This document shows positions 3,001 to 12,942 of a DNA stretch of 64,000 bases, in pieces. A model generated the notes under the pieces. It was not told where the DNA came from, made no database searches, and was given only the letters and a program-made list of their open reading frames with translations. The DNA is taken from positions 9,363,636 through 9,427,635 of the forward strand of contig CM021323.1 of assembly GCA_010645155.1 (NCBI GenBank). Direction: 5' to 3'. The stretch is from Tigriopus japonicus. Its lineage: Eukaryota > Arthropoda > Copepoda > Harpacticoida > Harpacticidae. Position 1 is the stretch's first letter, and each line of letters opens with the position of its first letter. Position numbers and translations under genes: made by a program.

Positions 3001-6000
3001 GGTTGTTGTTCAATAGCAATGTGTCTAGTTGAACGAGATCCTTGAATGCACCCTGCGGAATCCTCTTGATTCTATTGAATCGTAGATCTCTACAAGAAAT
3101 TAAGTGGCCATCAATTCTCCCAAGGTTAATACAGTTTTGACTTTAGAATCAAATACGAAATAGCACGATTTCTACTTGTGTTTATTACATAAAATAAAGT
3201 TAGGATGTAAAAGCATTTTAGATTTCATCGGTCAAATGGACTTCCGCAATCGTGACGGGAATATCGACCCAAAATACACCGAAGCTTTGCACCATAATGG
3301 CCATAAATTGGGGATCGTCGAGCTCTTCAAATTCTTTTTTGGCCTCAAACCGAGCCTTAACCACGTTCTTGTCCAAGTTATTGGAGTGAGTTATTCCACA
3401 ATCATGAAATTCTCCAGACTCTTCGTCCAACGATTCCAAAATCTTGGCCGACTCTTGAAATTCTTCAGGGATCACCCAATGACCAGATTCTAGGTGTGAA
3501 AAAAGCTAGACAGTAATGTTCAATTTCAAACCCTATCAGTACTCGACAAAAACTTACGGGAAAAGTTGGGATTTTTCTGCATGACCACGAACCCTCTGAA
3601 CAATTCGGTCGCATTCTCATGCCCAATTTCAATCAAGAAATTACCGTCCGTCGTCTGAATAGCATTGATTTCGTAGGGTTGATCAGTCTTTTGGGGATCC
3701 TTAGAGTGTTTTGGCACAGTGACTTTGCAATTGGGAGCTCCGTTAGGAAAGCCTTGGATGCAGGCGAGGATATTGAGCGCAATCGAGGTCAAAATAAAAC
3801 CCTTCATTTTGTTAATTGAATACGACGGAGGTATGACCTATCACGATACTTGATTTTGGAATTTTGACCAACTTTGTTCACAAAACTCCTAAACTGAGAG
3901 CAATCTTGGGACTAGCATGAGCACCTTTGAGCATTCTGTTTCATAGCAAGAACGATCAAACCACCGAAATCATGCATCCTGATCTTGTAATGAAACGATA
4001 GATGATCGATCGGATGACATCAATTGGTGCTTAAAAACGGAAGGGCAGCTACAGATATTTTACAAAGAAGCTTTTTTTTAATTTTATACTTTGTTCAGAG
4101 TTAAGAAAATCCTAAAATTTCTCACCAAAATGCAATAAGCAACCTACAACAGCAAACCTTCTATCTATTTTGTAACACCGAAAGCAAAATGCATCGGGGG
4201 CCAACACGACAGTCGCAGCAGAAATAGGATTCTGACACCTTTAAGATTTAAAAAATGCGAAAATGGTCACGCTCGTCCCATGCAAGAAATTACCGACAGA
4301 TCTGAATTCGGAGCTTATGTCTTAGATTTGGTGATGGCTTGATTTTAACTTGTGATAATTTTTTCTCTTAACTTTAAGTCAACCATCCCAGATTCCAAAT
4401 CAATCAAGATTGGAGGACTGCTTTTGGTAGAACTCATTAGTAGTATATACTTGCACCCGATTTTCGCAGGTGCAATCATGCATAACCCCTAATTTCCGGC
4501 CCAGTGTGTAATTATGTGGCATGATTTTGGAAAAAAGCAGGGGGACAACAAATTTGAACAAAGAAAGGAAGTGACAGAACGCAAAAGCAATCATGCATAA
4601 CCCCTAATTTCCGGCCCGGATGTAATGGCCTGATTTTGGAAAAAAGCAGGTGGACAACAAATTTGAACAAAGAAAGGAAGACAAAAGTTTAAATTGCACA
4701 GCTTAAAATACGTACAATTAAAAAAATAATGACTCAAATACATTAATCATTTAAACTGTAATGAGATGACGTAATAATTTCCCAGGGATGACTCATGTGG
4801 AAAAAGAAGCAGGTGCGCAACAAACGTGAATGAACAAAGGAACCTCAAAGGAAGTGGCAGGCAACATTTTTAATTGCATTTAAACAAATAGACTAATTAA
4901 TCACTTAATATCTATTGAGATGAAGCAACAACTTCCCAAGCATGACCCACATGTATCATCATTTTGAAAAAGCAATTGTGCAACAAGCATGAATGAACAA
5001 AGAAACATCACTAGAAGTACTTTTGACATGCAACATTTTTTAATTGCATTTAAACAAATAGACTAATTAATAACTTAAAATTTATTGCGGACAATTAAAA
5101 TTGATTAACAAATCAAAAGTTTATAACCAAACTGCGGAAAGCGTGTTGGTTGCTAACGCAACCTGTTCATCGTAACGGAAGAAGCACCGACAAGGTGAAC
5201 AATATTCTTAACATGCACTCAGGATAAACATGCACAGGAAGTAAATCTTTGAAACAATGGTAATTTGTTGGTGATAGAAGAGCAACAAAAGTCTTTATAG
5301 TAGAAATAAACCACAAATAAAAAATGAAAAGGTATTTTTTGCAATGAACATTTCAAATTTTATTTCGTGTGATTAACAAATAAGTTTATCCTTGCTGGGA
5401 ATAATTCGGAAACACACTGTTTTTATGTCAACACAATCCATTCACAGCAACTTTGAATGTGTCAAAACGGCGTCATGTGTATTGAAATCAAAATAGTACA
5501 TGAAATTTCATTTATATTTTCGCAATTTGTATGTAAGCACTTCCAATGGCAGCTTCTTGAGCTGCCATTCCAATTTTCGCATCGTCCCCCAGACATATCT
5601 TCTTTTAAAACGAGTGACGTCACCTTTACAAGAACCTTGAAAATACAAGTGAACAATGTTACATCAACCATTCATCATTTGTAAACTTGAACTAATCTTA
5701 CCAAAATGTGATTGACACGGAGATGTTCCATGCGCAGACTTTGAACTTTTCTTGATGCGCTTTTGAGTTGGAGACAACATGATTTGACTAATAACAGAAG
5801 TATACTCTTATTCATGTGCACAGACTCTTGTCTTTTTATGATCTCTCCTTCACTCTGACACTGCAAAATGTTAAAATGTTTTATTTCCATTTACCTTTGA
5901 ATGGAAGAAGCGTGTTTGAACAATATTTCAATCCAATTCCCACAGTGGGCAATGAACTTCATGGATCATAATCAAGGTTAGCAGACACAGGAAGCCATGA

Positions 6001-9000
6001 ATATTTACTTGAAATGCTCTGAATTTGAGTTTTGATTGAAGATCATCAATCATTTCCAAAACATATTTAAACAGAGTGGATGTCAAGTACTAAAACTACC
6101 AAAGTTATAGATGAAACAAGTGATTAAATCGGAATTATGTTATGTGATAACCCTCAACTGTGAAAAATCAAGCAAACACCAAGTTTGCAGGTGTTTCCCT
6201 GTTTGAAAAGCACCTCCACTAATGAAGAAAACCCACCACTCTTCACAAATGCTTACCAATTCGTCTTTTTCCTCACTTTGACTACTTTGCACATGCCCTT
6301 TTCCATATGTGCACACCCGCTTTTGTTCAGCTAAGTTGAAAGTAGAGAGTTTGACAATAAGATTCTTTACCTAAAAGTTTAAAGATATTTCTATGTAAAA
6401 GAAGCCAGCTAAAGCCCACTACCATGTGAATGAGTAAGACGACAAAACCAAAGCCTTACTGTAGGTTGTTTATAGAGTACAGACCATGGCAAGTGGTAGC
6501 TGCAGTAGTGGTAAGCCAAGGCAGACGCAAAAGAAGGTTGAGGAGAGTAATTGAGAGCTGCACCACATAGATATTGGCGCAAGACATGTGGATACCCGCT
6601 CAAGGAAGGACACCTCTGTTGGGGACAGTCATGTACTTGCAACTGAGAATGAATCTCATGTACATACTTGTACGTATGTGTATTTACATGTGCGCAATAG
6701 CTTCATTTCTCTATTTCCATTACCGAGTTCTGGCACCGAAGCATGCACAAGTATGGAAGTCTCCCTCGCATTATGTGTGGACCAAGCCATCTCTTTAGCA
6801 ATTGTATACCTATATTGATAGAAGGAGTACTTTCAAGGTAGACATCTCTTACTAGGGAAACCGGGCAATGATCTCTGACAGGCCAAGATGGCAAAACAGA
6901 CGAGCACATATCCTACATTGCGCACAAAAGTAGACCTCCCATGTCAGATGGTAGCACTATATGATTCGGGGCAAGTGCGATAGGAGGTTAAGGAGAGTGG
7001 TTAAAAGTTGTTCACCATAGATGTAGATACAAAGCGTCTATTAATCAAATCAAAGAGCGCTTGTAATGGTAATGAATATAGCTAAATTTATCTTGTAGGG
7101 AGTTCAAAGCCTTGATAACTTCTTTCCTTTCAAATGGTCTAAAGGTGAATCCATCAACAATTTGCCCACGTTTTTCCCAATATTTCGATAGGTCCAATCA
7201 TACCAGGTTTTATTTTTGACTTGATAGATGTCAATTTGTTTTCAAAGAAGGATGCAAGCTCTTCAGATGTTTTTCTTGGAATCAGTCAGTACCTGATCTT
7301 CAACCATGATGCAGCTTGAGCCACTATTTGCTTGCTTTTTTTGGTGTGTGCCTTGTTGATGGTATTCCAAACATTTTTACTGTACATGCCTTCTTTGGCT
7401 TGCCTTCTTGTTTCTCTTCCAACTCAATTCACACAACAATTTCTCGATTTTCAAAGCATTTACAAAGAGCATCTTTCTCGATCCTAACGGCAGCATCACA
7501 TTCTCTTTTTGGAGAGTCTCTTTCTTGCAACACTGCTTTTGTATCCTCACTGAAAGCTCTTTTATAGGATGAGGGAATAGCAAAAGCGCACCCTGGTGGG
7601 TGCTTATCAAGCACCCGATTGACATTTTTTTCTATGAATTTACCCATAAAGTCCGTGTCAGTATCCCAACAAAGATAATGACACGGAATTCCCCAAAGAT
7701 CTGTTAAAAGTTGTCTTTTCTCATCTGTTTGTAGCATCTTTTCGCAATCCACTTCTTTGATTTTGATGCATCCAATTTCCTCCATGGAATTGTAGCCACA
7801 AGAAGACAATGGTGACTCACAGCGCTTTGGAGTTTATAAGTTTTCAAGCAAAGATTTGGACCGCAACATATGTGGTCTATGGTTGAATGACAAGTCTCAT
7901 CTTGATCTCGCCTTTCTTCAAATGTGTGCTGAACTCCTGTCTCCACAAGGTCACAGACCCGTCACTAGAGTCAATTACCCGCCACAGAGACATCAAATGA
8001 TGATTGTCACCTTCAATTCTCTTTACGTTCAAGTTCATGTCTACACCCATAATTATGAGCTTGCCTTCACTCACTGCTACTCTTTCCATTTGAGGAACTG
8101 GCTCAAATGCTTAGGCACATGTTGTTTTACAGACACCCCACTCCACCCACCCACGGTAGAACACTGCAAAGAGAACCTTTTTGTCCCTATTTTGTAATCC
8201 CTCTAACTGGATAAGCGGGAGATACTTGTCCATAAGGTTGTCTCTCAGTCTAAACCTACACTGCAATTAAAGCTTTTGAGTACTGTCACCCTCGCTTTGT
8301 TGGTTTTTGTTCTTGCGAAAAACATGCCAAAACCGGCGTTTTTGGCAAACACATTTCACGGATTTTGAATTTTATCCTGGAAAAAATTAAGATTTGAAAA
8401 AACGCCGGTTTTGGCATGTTTTTCGCAAGAACAAAAACCAACAAAGCGAGGGTGACAGTACTCAAAAGCTTTAATTGCAGTGTAGGTTTAGACTGAGAGA
8501 CAACCTTATGGACAAGTATCTCCCGCTTATCCAGTTAGAGGGATTACAAAATAGGGACAAAAAGGTTCTCTTTGCAGTGTTCTACCGTGGGTGGGTGGAG
8601 TGGGGTGTCTGTAAAACAACATGTGCCTAAGCATTTGAGCCAGTTCCTCAAATGGAAAGAGTAGCAGTGAGTGAAGGCAAGCTCATAATTATGGGTGTAG
8701 ACATGAACTTGAACGTAAAGAGAATTGAAGGTGACAATCATCATTTGATGTCTCTGTGGCGGGTAATTGACTCTAGTGACGGGTCTGTGACCTTGTGGAG
8801 ACAGGAGTTCAGCACACATTTGAAGAAAGGCGAGATCAAGATGAGACTTGTCATTCAACCATAGACCACATATGTTGCGGTCCAAATCTTTGCTTGAAAA
8901 CTTATAAACTCCAAAGCGCTGTGAGTCACCATTGTCTTCTTGTGGCTACAATTCCATGGAGGAAATTGGATGCATCAAAATCAAAGAAGTGGATTGCGAA

Positions 9001-12000
9001 AAGATGCTACAAACAGATGAGAAAAGACAACTTTTAACAGATCTTTGGGGAATTCCGTGTCATTATCTTTGTTGGGATACTGACACGGACTTTATGGGTA
9101 AATTCATAGAAAAAAATGTCAATCGGGTGCTTGATAAGCACCCACCAGGGTGCGCTTTTGCTATTCCCTCATCCTATAAAAGAGCTTTCAGTGAGGATAC
9201 AAAAGCAGTGTTGCAAGAAAGAGACTCTCCAAAAAGAGAATGTGATGCTGCCGTTAGGATCGAGAAAGATGCTCTTTGTAAATGCTTTGAAAATCGAGAA
9301 ATTGTTGTGTGAATTGAGTTGGAAGAGAAACAAGAAGGCAAGCCAAAGAAGGCATGTACAGTAAAAATGTTTGGAATACCATCAACAAGGCACACACCAA
9401 AAAAAGCAAGCAAATAGTGGCTCAAGCTGCATCATGGTTGAAGATCAGGTACTGACTGATTCCAAGAAAAACATCTGAAGAGCTTGCATCCTTCTTTGAA
9501 AACAAATTGACATCTATCAAGTCAAAAATAAAACCTGGTATGATTGGACCTATCGAAATATTGGGAAAAACGTGGGCAAATTGTTGATGGATTCACCTTT
9601 AGACCATTTGAAAGGAAAGAAGTTATCAAGGCTTTGAACTCCCTACAAGATAAATTTAGCTATATTCATTACCATTACAAGCGCTCTTTGATTTGATTAA
9701 TAGACGCTTTGTATCTACATCTATGGTGAACAACTTTTAACCACTCTCCTTAACCTCCTATCGCACTTGCCCCGAATCATATAGTGCTACCATCTGACAT
9801 GGGAGGTCTACTTTTGTGCGCAATGTAGGATATGTGCTCGTCTGTTTTGCCATCTTGGCCTGTCAGAGATCATTGCCCGGTTTCCCTAGTAAGAGATGTC
9901 TACCTTGAAAGTACTCCTTCTATCAATATAGGTATACAATTGCTAAAGAGATGGCTTGGTCCACACATAATGCGAGGGAGACTTCCATACTTGTGCATGC
10001 TTCGGTGCCAGAACTCGGTAATGGAAATAGAGAAATGAAGCTATTGCGCACATGTAAATACACATACGTACAAGTATGTACATGAGATTCATTCTCAGTT
10101 GCAAGTACATGACTGTCCCCAACAGAGGTGTCCTTCCTTGAGCGGGTATCCACATGTCTTGCGCCAATATCTATGTGGTGCAGCTCTCAATTACTCTCCT
10201 CAACCTTCTTTTGCGTCTGCCTTGGCTTACCACTACTGCAGCTACCACTTGCCATGGTCTGTACTCTATAAACAACCTACAGTAAGGCTTTGGTTTTGTC
10301 GTCTTACTCATTCACATGGTAGTGGGCTTTAGCTGGCTTCTTTTACATAGAAATATCTTTAAACTTTTAGGTAAAGAATCTTATTGTCAAACTCTCTACT
10401 TTCAACTTAGCTGAACAAAAGCGGGTGTGCACATATGGAAAAGGGCATGTGCAAAGTAGTCAAAGTGAGGAAAAAGACGAATTGGTAAGCATTTGTGAAG
10501 AGTGGTGGGTTTTCTTCATTAGTGGAGGTGCTTTTCAAACAGGGAAACACCTGCAAACTTGGTGTTTGCTTGATTTTTCACAGTTGAGGGTTATCACATA
10601 ACATAATTCCGATTTAATCACTTGTTTCATCTATAACTTTGGTAGTTTTAGTACTTGACATCCACTCTGTTTAAATATGTTTTGGAAATGATTGATGATC
10701 TTCAATCAAAACTCAAATTCAGAGCATTTCAAGTAAATATTCATGGCTTCCTGTGTCTGCTAACCTTGATTATGATCCATGAAGTTCATTGCCCACTGTG
10801 GGAATTGGATTGAAATATTGTTCAAACACGCTTCTTCCATTCAAAGGTAAATGGAAATAAAACATTTTAACATTTTGCAGTGTCAGAGTGAAGGAGAGAT
10901 CATAAAAAGACAAGAGTCTGTGCACATGAATAAGAGTATACTTCTGTTATTAGTCAAATCATGTTGTCTCCAACTCAAAAGCGCATCAAGAAAAGTTCAA
11001 AGTCTGCGCATGGAACATCTCCGTGTCAATCACATTTTGGTAAGATTAGTTCAAGTTTACAAATGATGAATGGTTGATGTAACATTGTTCACTTGTATTT
11101 TCAAGGTTCTTGTAAAGGTGACGTCACTCGTTTTAAAAGAAGATATGCCTGGGGGACGATGCGAAAATTGGAATGGCAGCTCAAGAAGCTGCCATTGGAA
11201 GTGCTTACATACAAATTGCGAAAATATAAATGAAATTTCATGTACTATTTTGATTTCAATACACATGACGCCGTTTTGACACATTCAAAGTTGCTGTGAA
11301 TGGATTGTGTTGACATAAAAACAGTGTGTTTCCGAATTATTCCCAGCAAGGATAAACTTATTTGTTAATCACACGAAATAAAATTTGAAATGTTCATTGC
11401 AAAAAATACCTTTTCATTTTTTATTTGTGGTTTATTTCTACTATAAAGACTTTTGTTGCTCTTCTATCACCAACAAATTACCATTGTTTCAAAGATTTAC
11501 TTCCTGTGCATGTTTATCCTGAGTGCATGTTAAGAATATTGTTCACCTTGTCGGTGCTTCTTCCGTTACGATGAACAGGTTGCGTTAGCAACCAACACGC
11601 TTTCCGCAGTTTGGTTATAAACTTTTGATTTGTTAATCAATTTTAATTGTCCGCAATAAATTTTAAGTTATTAATTAGTCTATTTGTTTAAATGCAATTA
11701 AAAAATGTTGCATGTCAAAAGTACTTCTAGTGATGTTTCTTTGTTCATTCATGCTTGTTGCACACTTGCTTTTTCAAAATGATGATACATGTGGGTCATG
11801 CTTGGGAAGTTGTTGCTTCATCTCAATAGATATTAAGTGATTAATTAGTCTATTTGTTTAAATGCAATTAAAAATGTTGCCTGCCACTTCCTTTGAGGTT
11901 CCTTTGTTCATTCACGTTTGTTGCGCACCTGCTTCTTTTTCCACATGAGTCATCCCTGGGAAATTATTACGTCATCTCATTACAGTTTAAATGATTAATG

Positions 12001-12942
12001 TATTTGAGTCATTATTTTTTTAATTGTACGTATTTTAAGCTGTGCAATTTAAACTTTTGTCTTCCTTTCTTTGTTCAAATTTGTTGTCCACCTGCTTTTT
12101 TCCAAAATCAGGCCATTACATCCGGGCCGGAAATTAGGGGTTATGCATGATTGCTTTTGCGTTCTGTCACTTCCTTTCTTTGTTCAAATTTGTTGTCCCC
12201 CTGCTTTTTTCCAAAATCATGCCACATAATTACACACTGGGCCGGAAATTAGGGGTTATGCATGATTGCACCTGCGAAAATCGGGTGCAAGTATATACTA
12301 CTCTCATTTCCTCAAAAGAAATCACAATTCATTGCAGTAAAATGTCCGCACTTTTTATGTACTGTCAACATGACCCAATCAACGATTTTCAAAAACTCAA
12401 ATCCCATTCAAATCGTTTCTAAAGGTTGAAAATCAAGGTGTTTTCTCAATTCATACCATGTAAAGGGAAACAAGAGTTGGATCTTTTTTAAAAAATATAT
12501 AGGTAATAATCGCTTTTTAAGTTGTAAAATATTTCGGCAAAAGAAATAGAGAATAAAGTTCATCACTCTGGGGAAAAATCTCCTTTTTCAAACACACCTA
12601 GTCCTTATACCTTAAGACAGCATTTGGAATTTATGGCATGTTATTGTAATTTCAATTTCAACTTCACCCTTTCAATTTGTCTCCTGCCTGCATAAATAAA
12701 ATCATCATGACTTACACGACTTGAGCATGGGTTGGGATGGGAGGGGGTTCTTGTATGCCTACCAACATACACCTCACGGTGAGTTCCAAGCAGATGCATC
12801 CCGTTGGACAAGTTGTAACATTGAGCAATGACACATGCTCTGGTCCAGAAGTTCCCGGGTGTTTATCAATATTTGTTTGAGGGCTAGTGTGAGCAAGGAC
12901 GATACCCATAATCACACAAATCACAGCCAACGGGTCTCTCAT
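1..12942 (-). CDS. PXDN: Peroxidasin, 5' half (LRR and Ig part), partial at window edge
   Basis: Peroxidasin is a secreted haem peroxidase that forms sulfilimine cross-links in collagen IV of basement membrane. Exons read on the minus strand: 12942-12716 (signal peptide and LRR N-cap), 3089-2946 (two LRRs), 2881-2810, 2532-2461 and 2390-2319 (one 24-residue LRR each), 2224-2058 (LRR C-cap, with CDCEISWL), 1726-1414 (Ig1), 1343-1214 and 1143-1008 (Ig2), 940-779, 720-520 (Ig3 and start of Ig4), and 446 to beyond position 1. All phases agree and give 714 codons up to the edge. The LRR exon opens [15 protein letters not shown] and the last exon has NNTVTRLF and [10 protein letters not shown], which are hallmark peroxidasin sequences leading into the peroxidase domain. 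The catalytic domain itself lies outside. The intron between 12716 and 3089 carries a nested gene and a large palindrome. A second possible first exon lies at 18091-17802. Confidence 0.93.
3181..3186 (-). promoter_or_regulatory. Poly(A) signal of the Reeler gene
   Basis: AATAAA on the minus strand, 32 bases after the stop codon at 3218. Its position supports the Reeler gene ending independently of the surrounding peroxidasin transcript. Confidence 0.6.
3218..3807 (-). CDS. Reeler-domain secreted protein, nested in peroxidasin intron
   Basis: Two exons: 3807-3558 (phase-1 donor C|GTAAGT) and 3489-3218, intron 68 bp, 173 aa. The protein starts with a signal peptide ([19 protein letters not shown]). 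A single Reeler domain follows: FPNGAPNC and VPKH near the N-terminus, FRGFVVMQ in the middle, then CGITHSNN and a C-terminal SFGVFWVDI strand. This is the pattern of arthropod defence-protein/noduler-type Reeler proteins, which are secreted and often immune-related. It is short, a single domain with no DOMON. A poly(A) signal lies at 3186-3181. The gene is complete and on the same strand as its host gene, so it needs its own promoter. The domain call is solid; the role in immunity is inference from the family. Confidence 0.85.
4433..4438 (+). repeat. Left 6-bp direct repeat (target-site duplication) of the palindrome
   Basis: CTCATT directly abutting the left tip; the identical CTCATT at 12303-12308 abuts the right tip. 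Confidence 0.7.
4472..5095 (+). repeat. Subterminal tandem repeats, left arm
   Basis: Four degenerate units of roughly 115-190 bp, starting near 4472, 4590, 4780 and 4940. Shared pieces are GCAATCATGCATAACCCC, a GGAAAAAGAAGCAGGTG-type block, ACAACAAATTTGAACAAAG-type blocks and TTTAATTGCATTTAAAC. The first two units are nearly identical; the outer pair and the inner pair each resemble one another most. Confidence 0.65.
7051..8196 (-). pseudogene. Decayed non-LTR retrotransposon fragment (left arm copy)
   Basis: Mirror copy of the LINE fragment at 8545-9690. The open frames here encode the same peptides with the same stops, so the decay predates the inverted duplication or has been kept equal by gene conversion. 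Confidence 0.62.
8344..8397. other. 54-bp unpaired centre of the palindrome
   Basis: Complementarity breaks at 8344/8397. The spacer is AT-rich (contains TTTCACGGATTTTG and TCCTGGAAAAAATTAAG) and is bordered by the inverted sequence ATGCCAAAACCGGCGTTTT. It would form the loop of a hairpin if the arms paired. Confidence 0.85.
8545..9690 (+). pseudogene. Decayed non-LTR retrotransposon fragment (right arm)
   Basis: Read over shifting frames, it carries endonuclease-like pieces ([10 protein letters not shown], then [12 protein letters not shown] like the GDFN block). A linker follows with [12 protein letters not shown] and [13 protein letters not shown], as in the post-endonuclease region of jockey/CR1-type LINEs. 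The beginning of the reverse transcriptase comes next ([34 protein letters not shown]). Several stops and frameshifts interrupt it and it ends before the catalytic reverse-transcriptase motifs. It is a dead fragment. An exact mirror copy lies in the left arm. Confidence 0.62.
11646..12269 (-). repeat. Subterminal tandem repeats, right arm
   Basis: Mirror image of the tandem units at 4472-5095, including the two CATGATTGC-containing units near 12145 and 12265. Confidence 0.65.
12303..12308 (+). repeat. Right 6-bp direct repeat (target-site duplication) of the palindrome
   Basis: CTCATT directly abutting the right tip of the palindrome and matching the copy at 4433-4438 in direct orientation. 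Confidence 0.7.
12309..12715. other. Peroxidasin intron, no feature seen
   Basis: Unique AT-rich intron sequence between the palindrome and the proximal first exon. Confidence 0.5.
12716..12942 (-). CDS. PXDN: Peroxidasin proximal first coding exon (signal peptide + LRRNT)
   Basis: The exon starts [20 protein letters not shown], a good signal peptide. It continues to an LRR N-cap with the spacing CPTGCIC...VRCM and ends PTHAQV plus two bases of the next codon at GT|GTAAGT (phase 2). The next exon at 3089 begins A-GAT-CTA, giving VVDLRFNRI across the junction, as in peroxidasins. It is 227 bp, 75 codons plus two bases. It is functionally equivalent to the distal exon at 18091-17802. Which is used, and where, cannot be decided from sequence. 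Confidence 0.8.

Follow-up and report, generated by a model that had tools for sequence, protein, structure and literature searches.

What is a near-perfect palindrome of 7,864 bp doing in a copepod chromosome, and how did it arise? The window, which is the whole 64-kb stretch of Tigriopus japonicus DNA analysed here, carries such a palindrome at 4439-12302. We consider it likely that it is an integrated, non-autonomous Polinton/Maverick derivative of palindromic form, born by snap-back synthesis and since moved as a palindrome.

A palindrome inserted as a unit

Within the window the mirror axis i+j=16741 was backed by 7,692 20-mers, compared with 32 for the next axis, and the N content was zero. 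The arms differed at just two positions (4976/11765 and 5593/11148). Axis and arm alignment confirmed what the first-pass annotation had described: a near-perfect palindrome with two arm differences, a 54-bp centre and CTCATT in direct orientation (Table 1).

Table 1. Features of the palindromic element, in window coordinates.
Feature	Position	Strand	Remark
Left target-site duplication copy, CTCATT, 6 bp	4433..4438	.	Single CTCATT in paralogous empty site C41:235083-235255
Left arm, 3,905 bp	4439..8343	+	
Left tip AGTAGTATATACTTGC, opens with AGT twice	4439..4454	+	(AGT)2 is the published Maverick end motif (available text of PMC8097293)
Subterminal repeats, start-to-start 109-170 bp	4465..5087	+	Part common to Polinton-bearing locus C105
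Polinton-derived stretch, 95.9% identity to C105 region between TFIIB-like and PolB genes	5996..6186	+	193 aligned bp
Inner arm block	7080..8343	+	Present in many further family members, palindromic or not
Asymmetric centre, 54 bp	8344..8397	.	Read as unpaired fold-back loop
Right arm, 3,905 bp	8398..12302	-	2 mismatches vs left
Mirror of Polinton-derived stretch	10555..10745	-	Mirror coordinates
Right tip, exact inverse of left tip	12287..12302	-	
Right target-site duplication copy, CTCATT	12303..12308	.	Direct orientation, adjoins tip

When the two flanks were joined (90+90 bp), they matched 40 listed sites; 40 of the 114 candidates were scored, and every one of these matches ran through the join. 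The element therefore sits within a dispersed repeat and its flanks are not unique, contrary to what had been claimed. This strengthens the case for insertion, because the matched places are empty sites. With paralogous sites running across the join, and with CTCATT present once in the site that was aligned base by base, the palindrome was inserted as a unit, in agreement with the earlier proposal.

The palindromic form is mobile

A genome search recovered 83 tips of the window kind; the search fixed the (AGT)2 letters, and their constancy over these tips is not a measurement. Among 19 family elements with both flanks, the 6-bp duplication matched at 6/6 positions in 14 and at 5/6 in three, and two had none. 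Window-type palindromes with the same 54-bp centre were found at C9 (the window copy), C10, C15, C19 and C41, the last with one longer arm, and are flanked in that order by CTCATT, GATGAG, AGTAGG/GGTAGG (5/6), TATATA and AGTATT. The search for further copies that the first-pass annotation had called for was thus productive. Because the same palindrome recurs at four further sites, each with a target sequence of its own, the palindromic form is itself mobile, with unit insertions at five sites and five different target sequences.

A 23-nt centre pattern had 8 exact genome matches, in members that are palindromic now or apparently once were. Relative to the contig strand, the centre occurs in either orientation. 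We rejected flipping of the centre as isomerisation: the palindrome has no other orientation, and insertion direction accounts for both.

The inner 2,905 bp of the arm showed at most 10 substitutions among nine arms compared, with 7 inner differences in C10, 10 in C19a and 4 in C15. At arm position 1155 the left and right arms differ in the window copy, C10 and C15 alike, and from this common polymorphism it follows that both arms were inherited together. These observations bear on whether the palindrome could be an assembly or read-chimera artefact that mirrors one arm. Near-perfect palindromes are a known form of such artefacts, and ours was read from the assembly alone. However, a mirrored arm accounts neither for the direct 6-bp duplication and the 40 sites continuous across the join, nor for the same centre on other contigs with different flanks and different tips, nor for an arm difference that is an arm-differing site in two further copies. 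We regard an artefact as scarcely credible.

The outer kilobase behaved differently from the inner arm. Both arms were compared in four elements, and in three of these it differed by a single substitution from one arm to the other. From element to element it differed by 12-57 substitutions, and the arms of C15 were 18 substitutions and 3 gaps apart in this zone. Tips were likewise alike within most elements and different between elements: 17 of 21 pairs were identical (shuffle mean 1.34, maximum 7 in 20,000) and 4 were unlike. We had considered that half of the palindrome is regenerated in each cycle, which would make the two arms always closest relatives. This holds for the outer zone alone, in three of four elements, and the strong form was dropped because inner arms share polymorphisms across elements. 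Arm alleles were linked to the centre in mixed fashion, a hint, and no more, of exchange between arms.

Instead of replication of the mobile form, ordinary gene conversion in the chromosome could have maintained arm identity once the element was inserted. Large palindromes are well known to undergo conversion between their arms, yet here the inner differences persist while the outer kilobase is near-uniform within three of four elements, and the ends that both arms share are specific to each element. We judge this explanation unlikely as the main one; chromosomal gene conversion is possible as an additional process. Replication of the mobile form is the reading we retain, and the identity of tips within an element would likely arise from pairing of the ends (as a panhandle or hairpin) during replication.

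Coding relatives point to Polintons

According to the available text of PMC8097293, Mavericks end in (AGT)2...(ACT)2 and are flanked by 6-bp duplications. The window tips (AGTAGT.../...ACTACT) and the duplication length both fit, which bears out the Polinton/Maverick resemblance noted before. The group is defined by a protein-primed PolB and a retroviral-type integrase (PMC6431247, available text), and we found both among relatives of the window copy. Locus C105, which has family-type ends, codes for PolB twice (PF03175, 3.6e-18 for one copy), for a TBP-like and a TFIIB-like protein, and for an ATPase, a 222-aa P-loop protein with weak matches to Pox_A32 (E=0.0019) and AAA_22 (1.3e-4), neither of which reaches its Pfam cut-off. 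A near-identical copy on C12 has its PolB interrupted by N and encodes an integrase (rve 2.1e-16, Chromo 1.1e-5); in L039, an ORF bordering an N stretch had no Pfam match over 171 aa. The predicted coding relatives were thus recovered as far as PolB, integrase and an ATPase with a weak packaging-type match are concerned; a full-length Polinton with both tips was not among the copies read, the C12 copy being broken by N with its tips unseen.

C105 is itself a pol-bearing palindrome. Because its tips are unlike and a target duplication is absent, it may have arisen by recombination between two elements; at its turn there is a 3-nt microhomology only, next to an N. Scanning IMG/VR with a pol alignment yielded one relative from 38 matching stretches, and this relative had no large inverted duplication, only one 102-bp self-inverse match.

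The arms of the window copy are a mosaic of which only short pieces can be traced to a coding Polinton, among them window 4589-4698, 99.1% identical over 110 bp to C105 54351-54242. No PolB or integrase fragment was recognised in three arm ORFs compared with Pfam (no significant match, best E 0.16), and a homology search with one arm ORF (134 aa) gave no match. Longer family members (C3, C6, C41, C11 and C44) were at first considered to be full-length coding parents. Among four ORFs from C11 and C41 compared with Pfam there was no Polinton core gene, and one ORF resembled a reverse transcriptase (RVT_1 8.9e-7, with a bit score slightly short of the cut-off). These longer members are likely non-autonomous. 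Beside the C11 copy, a retroviral-integrase-like frame and a 944-aa RT-like frame were read from the letters by eye.

Could the family instead consist of foldback-type DNA transposons (Galileo/Foldback-like), moved by a cut-and-paste transposase and resembling Polintons through borrowed sequence? Galileo too has inverted repeats that are long, variable in length and repetitive inside, and it includes chimeric copies that lack duplications (available text of PMC3573991). Its duplications are 7 bp long there, as opposed to 6 bp here; the tips of our family are the published Maverick motif, a locus with such tips codes for PolB and its relative also for integrase, and no other transposase was recognised among the ORFs scanned, which cover part of the family. 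A foldback origin is therefore very improbable.

A pol-side palindrome and the origin of the form

A second kind of palindrome, at C25, is the clearest evidence on origin. It is a 5.0-kb palindrome of the pol-side end, with 2,466-bp arms free of mismatches and a 6/6 target duplication, TGTATA. Its arm was 99.3% identical to the left arm of C105 over 2,315 bp. With the right arm of C105 it shared 97.7% identity over 2,567 bp, in a match that begins 35 bp in from the tip. The 112-bp centre is in-line parental sequence, identical to C105 39152-39263 (pol), and the turn is bounded by a 6-nt inverted microhomology, CATGCA...TGCATG. As far as sequence comparison goes, C25 fits the prediction of snap-back (copy-back) synthesis.

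The suggestion that the window holds an integrated copy-back form thus finds its most direct counterpart at C25. For the window copy we infer a copy-back birth and claim no more, because its arms are mosaic and an in-line parent of its 54-bp centre was looked for in this lineage and not found.

Palindromes might also form in place, when an ordinary inserted Polinton is broken and gap repair through its terminal inverted repeats overwrites one half with a copy of the other. Terminal inverted repeats are present in the family and could guide this process, microhomology joints fit it as well as they fit copy-back, and the target duplication would survive. C25 could be such a product. But gap repair can account for a single locus; it does not explain why one centre, with inner arms almost identical, recurs at five sites with five different target sequences, and once a first palindrome had formed it must still have moved as such. 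As a general account we find it improbable, and prefer snap-back synthesis.

In the snap-back scheme, protein-primed synthesis would begin at one terminus and then stall. The 3' end of the nascent strand would pair with an inverted microhomology slightly upstream and be extended on its own strand as far as the terminus, so that a hairpin with a single origin results. Once replicated round the loop, this hairpin would become a linear palindrome carrying that origin at each end, and PolB and integrase of related Polintons would serve its replication and insertion. More speculatively, in a reading that we hold to be less likely than not, Polinton copy-back palindromes may have become a self-maintaining satellite lineage: with two identical protein-primed origins, they would exchange ends with other family members, re-copy them from end to end and be re-inserted repeatedly by the parent integrase, and hairpin transcripts of the pol arm (C25) would feed host small-RNA silencing of the parent.

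Implications

As far as is known, the way in which Polintons replicate in animals has been deduced from polymerase homology. Palindromes of this kind are the expected residue of protein-primed, strand-displacing synthesis with snap-back, and integrated ones whose centre and turn match a parent in line would be fossil replication intermediates, so that replication mode becomes testable from genome sequence alone. They also indicate that a virus-like transposon can give rise to defective, DI-like genomes that integrate and multiply as a family. As natural large palindromes they allow stability and arm conversion to be tracked, and they may give rise to hairpin RNA directed at the parent. Among the matches listed in a search of mostly non-subscription literature, no paper addressed palindromic or copy-back Polintons by title or abstract opening.

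Comparison with known systems

With Polintons/Mavericks the family shares the end motif and duplication length (PMC8097293, available text) and, in the relatives at C105 and C12, the two defining genes (PMC6431247, available text). The window copy differs in having no recognised core gene and in being a near-perfect palindrome, whereas intact vertebrate Mavericks have inverted repeats of 46-1,447 bp (PMC8097293, available text). Foldback/Galileo elements share the repeat architecture set out above and differ, besides the duplication length, in a P-superfamily transposase and no link to a protein-primed polymerase (PMC3573991, available text). No P-superfamily transposase surfaced among the ORFs scanned here (window arms, C11, C41, C105, C12 and L039).

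Copy-back defective interfering genomes of negative-strand RNA viruses arise when the polymerase turns onto the nascent strand. They have the same complementary ends and unpaired loop but are RNA, not DNA, and we know of no chromosomal mobile family formed by them.

The nearest parallel is found in adenoviruses, which produce symmetric (palindromic) defective genomes, including the symmetric recombinant SYREC of adenovirus 12. The first-pass annotation did not recognise the class as described; its closest counterpart has been described before. There too one end of a protein-primed linear genome is inversely duplicated, so that both ends are identical, and the arms sometimes contain foreign DNA. 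The adenovirus forms, however, are packaged virion DNAs, whereas those described here are chromosomal insertions with target duplications that have multiplied as a family.

Insertion of the palindrome as a unit

Axis, arm and tip comparisons confirmed the near-perfect palindrome bounded by CTCATT that the first-pass annotation had described. Its axis (i+j=16741) was backed by 7,692 20-mers, against 32 for the runner-up in the window, and CTCATT directly adjoined both tips in a sequence free of N. When the flanks were joined at one CTCATT (180 bp) and searched against the genome (194.85 Mb, 158 contigs), all 40 listed matches, scored among 114 candidates, ran across the join. The one place aligned, C41:235083-235255 on another contig, carried one CTCATT where the window carries the palindrome and its duplication. 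The palindrome therefore inserted as a unit, into a dispersed repeat, of which many other copies stand empty, rather than between the unique flanks previously supposed. The earlier argument for insertion gains from this result, and an assembly chimera would not produce joined-flank matches at empty sites. At least 40 places in the genome carry relatives of the repeat at the insertion site (window 4349-4438 and 12309-12398). Scans of five window reading frames identified two proteins of neurotransmitter-gated channels and one each of the EcKL family, the BTB type and the kelch type; the EcKL protein indicates an arthropod host.

Features of the window palindrome and coding content of its relative on contig C105
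Feature	Location	Size	Detail
Palindrome arms	window 4439-8343 and 8398-12302	3,905 bp each	two positions unlike
Palindrome centre	window 8344-8397		asymmetric
PolB	C105	1,257-aa frame	present twice; PF03175, 3.6e-18
TBP-like protein	C105		PF00352, 1.3e-10
TFIIB-like zinc-ribbon protein	C105		3.9e-5, below cut-off
281-aa protein	C105	281 aa	
P-loop ATPase	C105		

A family with Polinton ends and coding relatives

Published Maverick ends read 5'-(AGT)2//(ACT)2-3' and are accompanied by 6-bp duplications, as described in PMC8097293; the window palindrome shows both. Its 16-nt tip matched the genome 13 times (5 + 8; reversed control, none); relaxing the pattern raised this to 83 (44 + 39; control, 0). 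Among 19 elements with both flanks in the sequence read, the duplication was perfect in 14, with no two target sequences alike, matched at five of six positions in three, and was absent in two (C58 and C105). Both duplication-less elements have unlike tips, as expected for recombinants. Tips were also unlike at C8:11705080, where the flanks lay outside the sequence read. The element at C10:3850921-3854994 (stretch L018) is an exception to end identity, having a perfect duplication (CACAAT) but differing tips. Tips are modular, with ten variants of the middle segment and nine of the next in many combinations (31 distinct among the 83), as if recombination shuffles ends. The family includes miniatures, 196-256 bp long and flanked by perfect duplications of 6 bp, at C1:10894592, C4:6214657, C13:1564134 and C3:1482011; their interiors were mostly N as read, the C4 copy less so.

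The element at C105:36529-54401 has ends of the window kind and encodes a PolB. The TBP-like and TFIIB-like genes adjoin PolB (L038:2115-2876 and L038:2747-3496, both + strand; also L040:370-1751). We know of no such transcription-factor pair in Polintons, and a term search of PMC11071308, a paper treating these viruses, found neither TFIIB nor TBP. A second relative, on C12 (36000-54000; N-interrupted, tips outside view), is 94-99% identical to C105 across its long matches (73% in one match of 248 bp) and additionally encodes an integrase (rve 2.1e-16, Chromo 1.1e-5). ATPase fragments lie at two further places (C20, C96). The window arm matches the C105 TFIIB-like/PolB intergenic region (95.9% over 193 aligned bp) and the C105 subterminal repeats (99.1% over 110 bp); the palindrome has both Polinton-type ends and relatives that encode Polinton genes. 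No Polinton genes were recognised in the three arm ORFs scanned, and we read the element as non-autonomous: a Polinton polymerase would replicate the palindromes, with integrase supplied in trans. Long members hold a reverse-transcriptase-like fragment (L022:7678-8064, RVT_1 at 8.9e-7, just below cut-off; L027:20-406) at an equal relative place, as if retroelement debris travelled inside a Polinton derivative.

Movement in palindromic form

A 23-nt centre pattern, which as an exact pattern misses diverged centres such as the one adjoining the C3 member's inner block, had eight matches (C1, C9 (the window element), C10, C12, C15, C19, C41 and C58), all in members palindromic now or apparently once so. 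The elements on C9, C10, C15, C19 and C41 have the whole 54-bp centre in common, and nine of their arms differ by at most 10 substitutions over the inner 2,905 bp; their target sequences are CTCATT, GATGAG, AGTAGG/GGTAGG, TATATA and AGTATT, respectively. Had each insertion been palindromised separately in place, the same turn point would have been needed every time. The palindrome transposes in palindromic form. The C41 element (C41:237015-248648; L022, L023) is lopsided, its left arm long and its right arm short about the common centre, yet it has a perfect duplication and tips identical over 86 bp.

Ten arms from six elements were compared, with both arms for four. The inner 2,905 bp are identical among the right arms of the window, C15 and C41 elements and the left arm of C10, while arms within an element differ by 1 (window), 7 (C10), 4 (C15) and 10 (C19a) substitutions. 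Arm position 1155 is unlike between arms in the window, C10 and C15 elements, and a run of variants is common to the right arms of C10 and C19a. Since inner variants are shared across elements and arms are unlike within them, both arms pass through transposition. The outer 1 kb reverses this pattern, with one difference within each of the window, C10 and C19a elements and 12-57 substitutions and 3-11 gaps between elements; the C15 arms differ by 18 substitutions and three gaps, 200-400 bp from the tip. Among convergent neighbours <20 kb apart drawn from the 83 tips, 17 of 21 pairs were identical over 25 nt (expectation 1.34; maximum 7 in 20,000 shuffles), and in the C1 element, as in one on C12, a stretch present in the window arm is missing from both arms alike. 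Together these observations indicate that ends are repeatedly replaced and re-copied to the other side. In a linear replicon primed by protein, copying would most naturally proceed by pairing between both ends of its displaced strand (a panhandle), a pairing known from adenovirus; chromosomal conversion may also contribute.

Probable origin by copy-back

The element at C25:505580-510623 (duplication TGTATA) has 2,466-bp arms with zero mismatches, each equivalent to the pol-side Polinton end at C105 (99.3% over 2,315 bp of its left arm, from 269 bp inside the tip; 97.7% over 2,567 bp of its right arm, from 35 bp inside). The 112-bp centre is the in-line pol continuation, identical to C105 39152-39263, and C12 carries it in line as well (97.3% over 528 bp). 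The turn falls at an inverted microhomology: CATGCA precedes the centre, and its reverse complement, TGCATG, follows in the parent; at least six matching bases at a random joint have a chance of ~0.0013 under a simple one-event model. Judged from its sequence, this structure is the one expected from snap-back synthesis, in which a nascent strand would pair its 3' end with itself 112 nt upstream and, presumably through a hairpin intermediate, copy back to the terminus where it started.

At C105, that pol-side end stands in an inverted duplication with another turn point (3-nt microhomology adjoining an N), a centre of ~1.8 kb and arms 97.6-97.8% identical across two long blocks. Because its tips are unlike and it has no target-site duplication, the C105 element is possibly a recombinant. 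The window lineage has a third, distinct centre; as its parent was not found, we infer copy-back there; the copy-back form first proposed for the window palindrome is most directly supported at the C25 turn point.

Comparison with known systems

Chimeric copies similar to the duplication-less, unlike-tip C58 and C105 are known in Galileo, as described in PMC3573991. Among the matches listed in a literature search of titles and abstract starts, no report of a palindromic or copy-back Polinton was found. Protein-primed polymerases start on terminal reiterations, CATCAT in adenovirus; the doubled AGT with which the tips begin is similar and, by analogy, fits protein-primed replication. The palindromic, copy-back principle itself is not new: adenovirus defective genomes already show it, and the Polinton palindromes are therefore a variant on a known principle.
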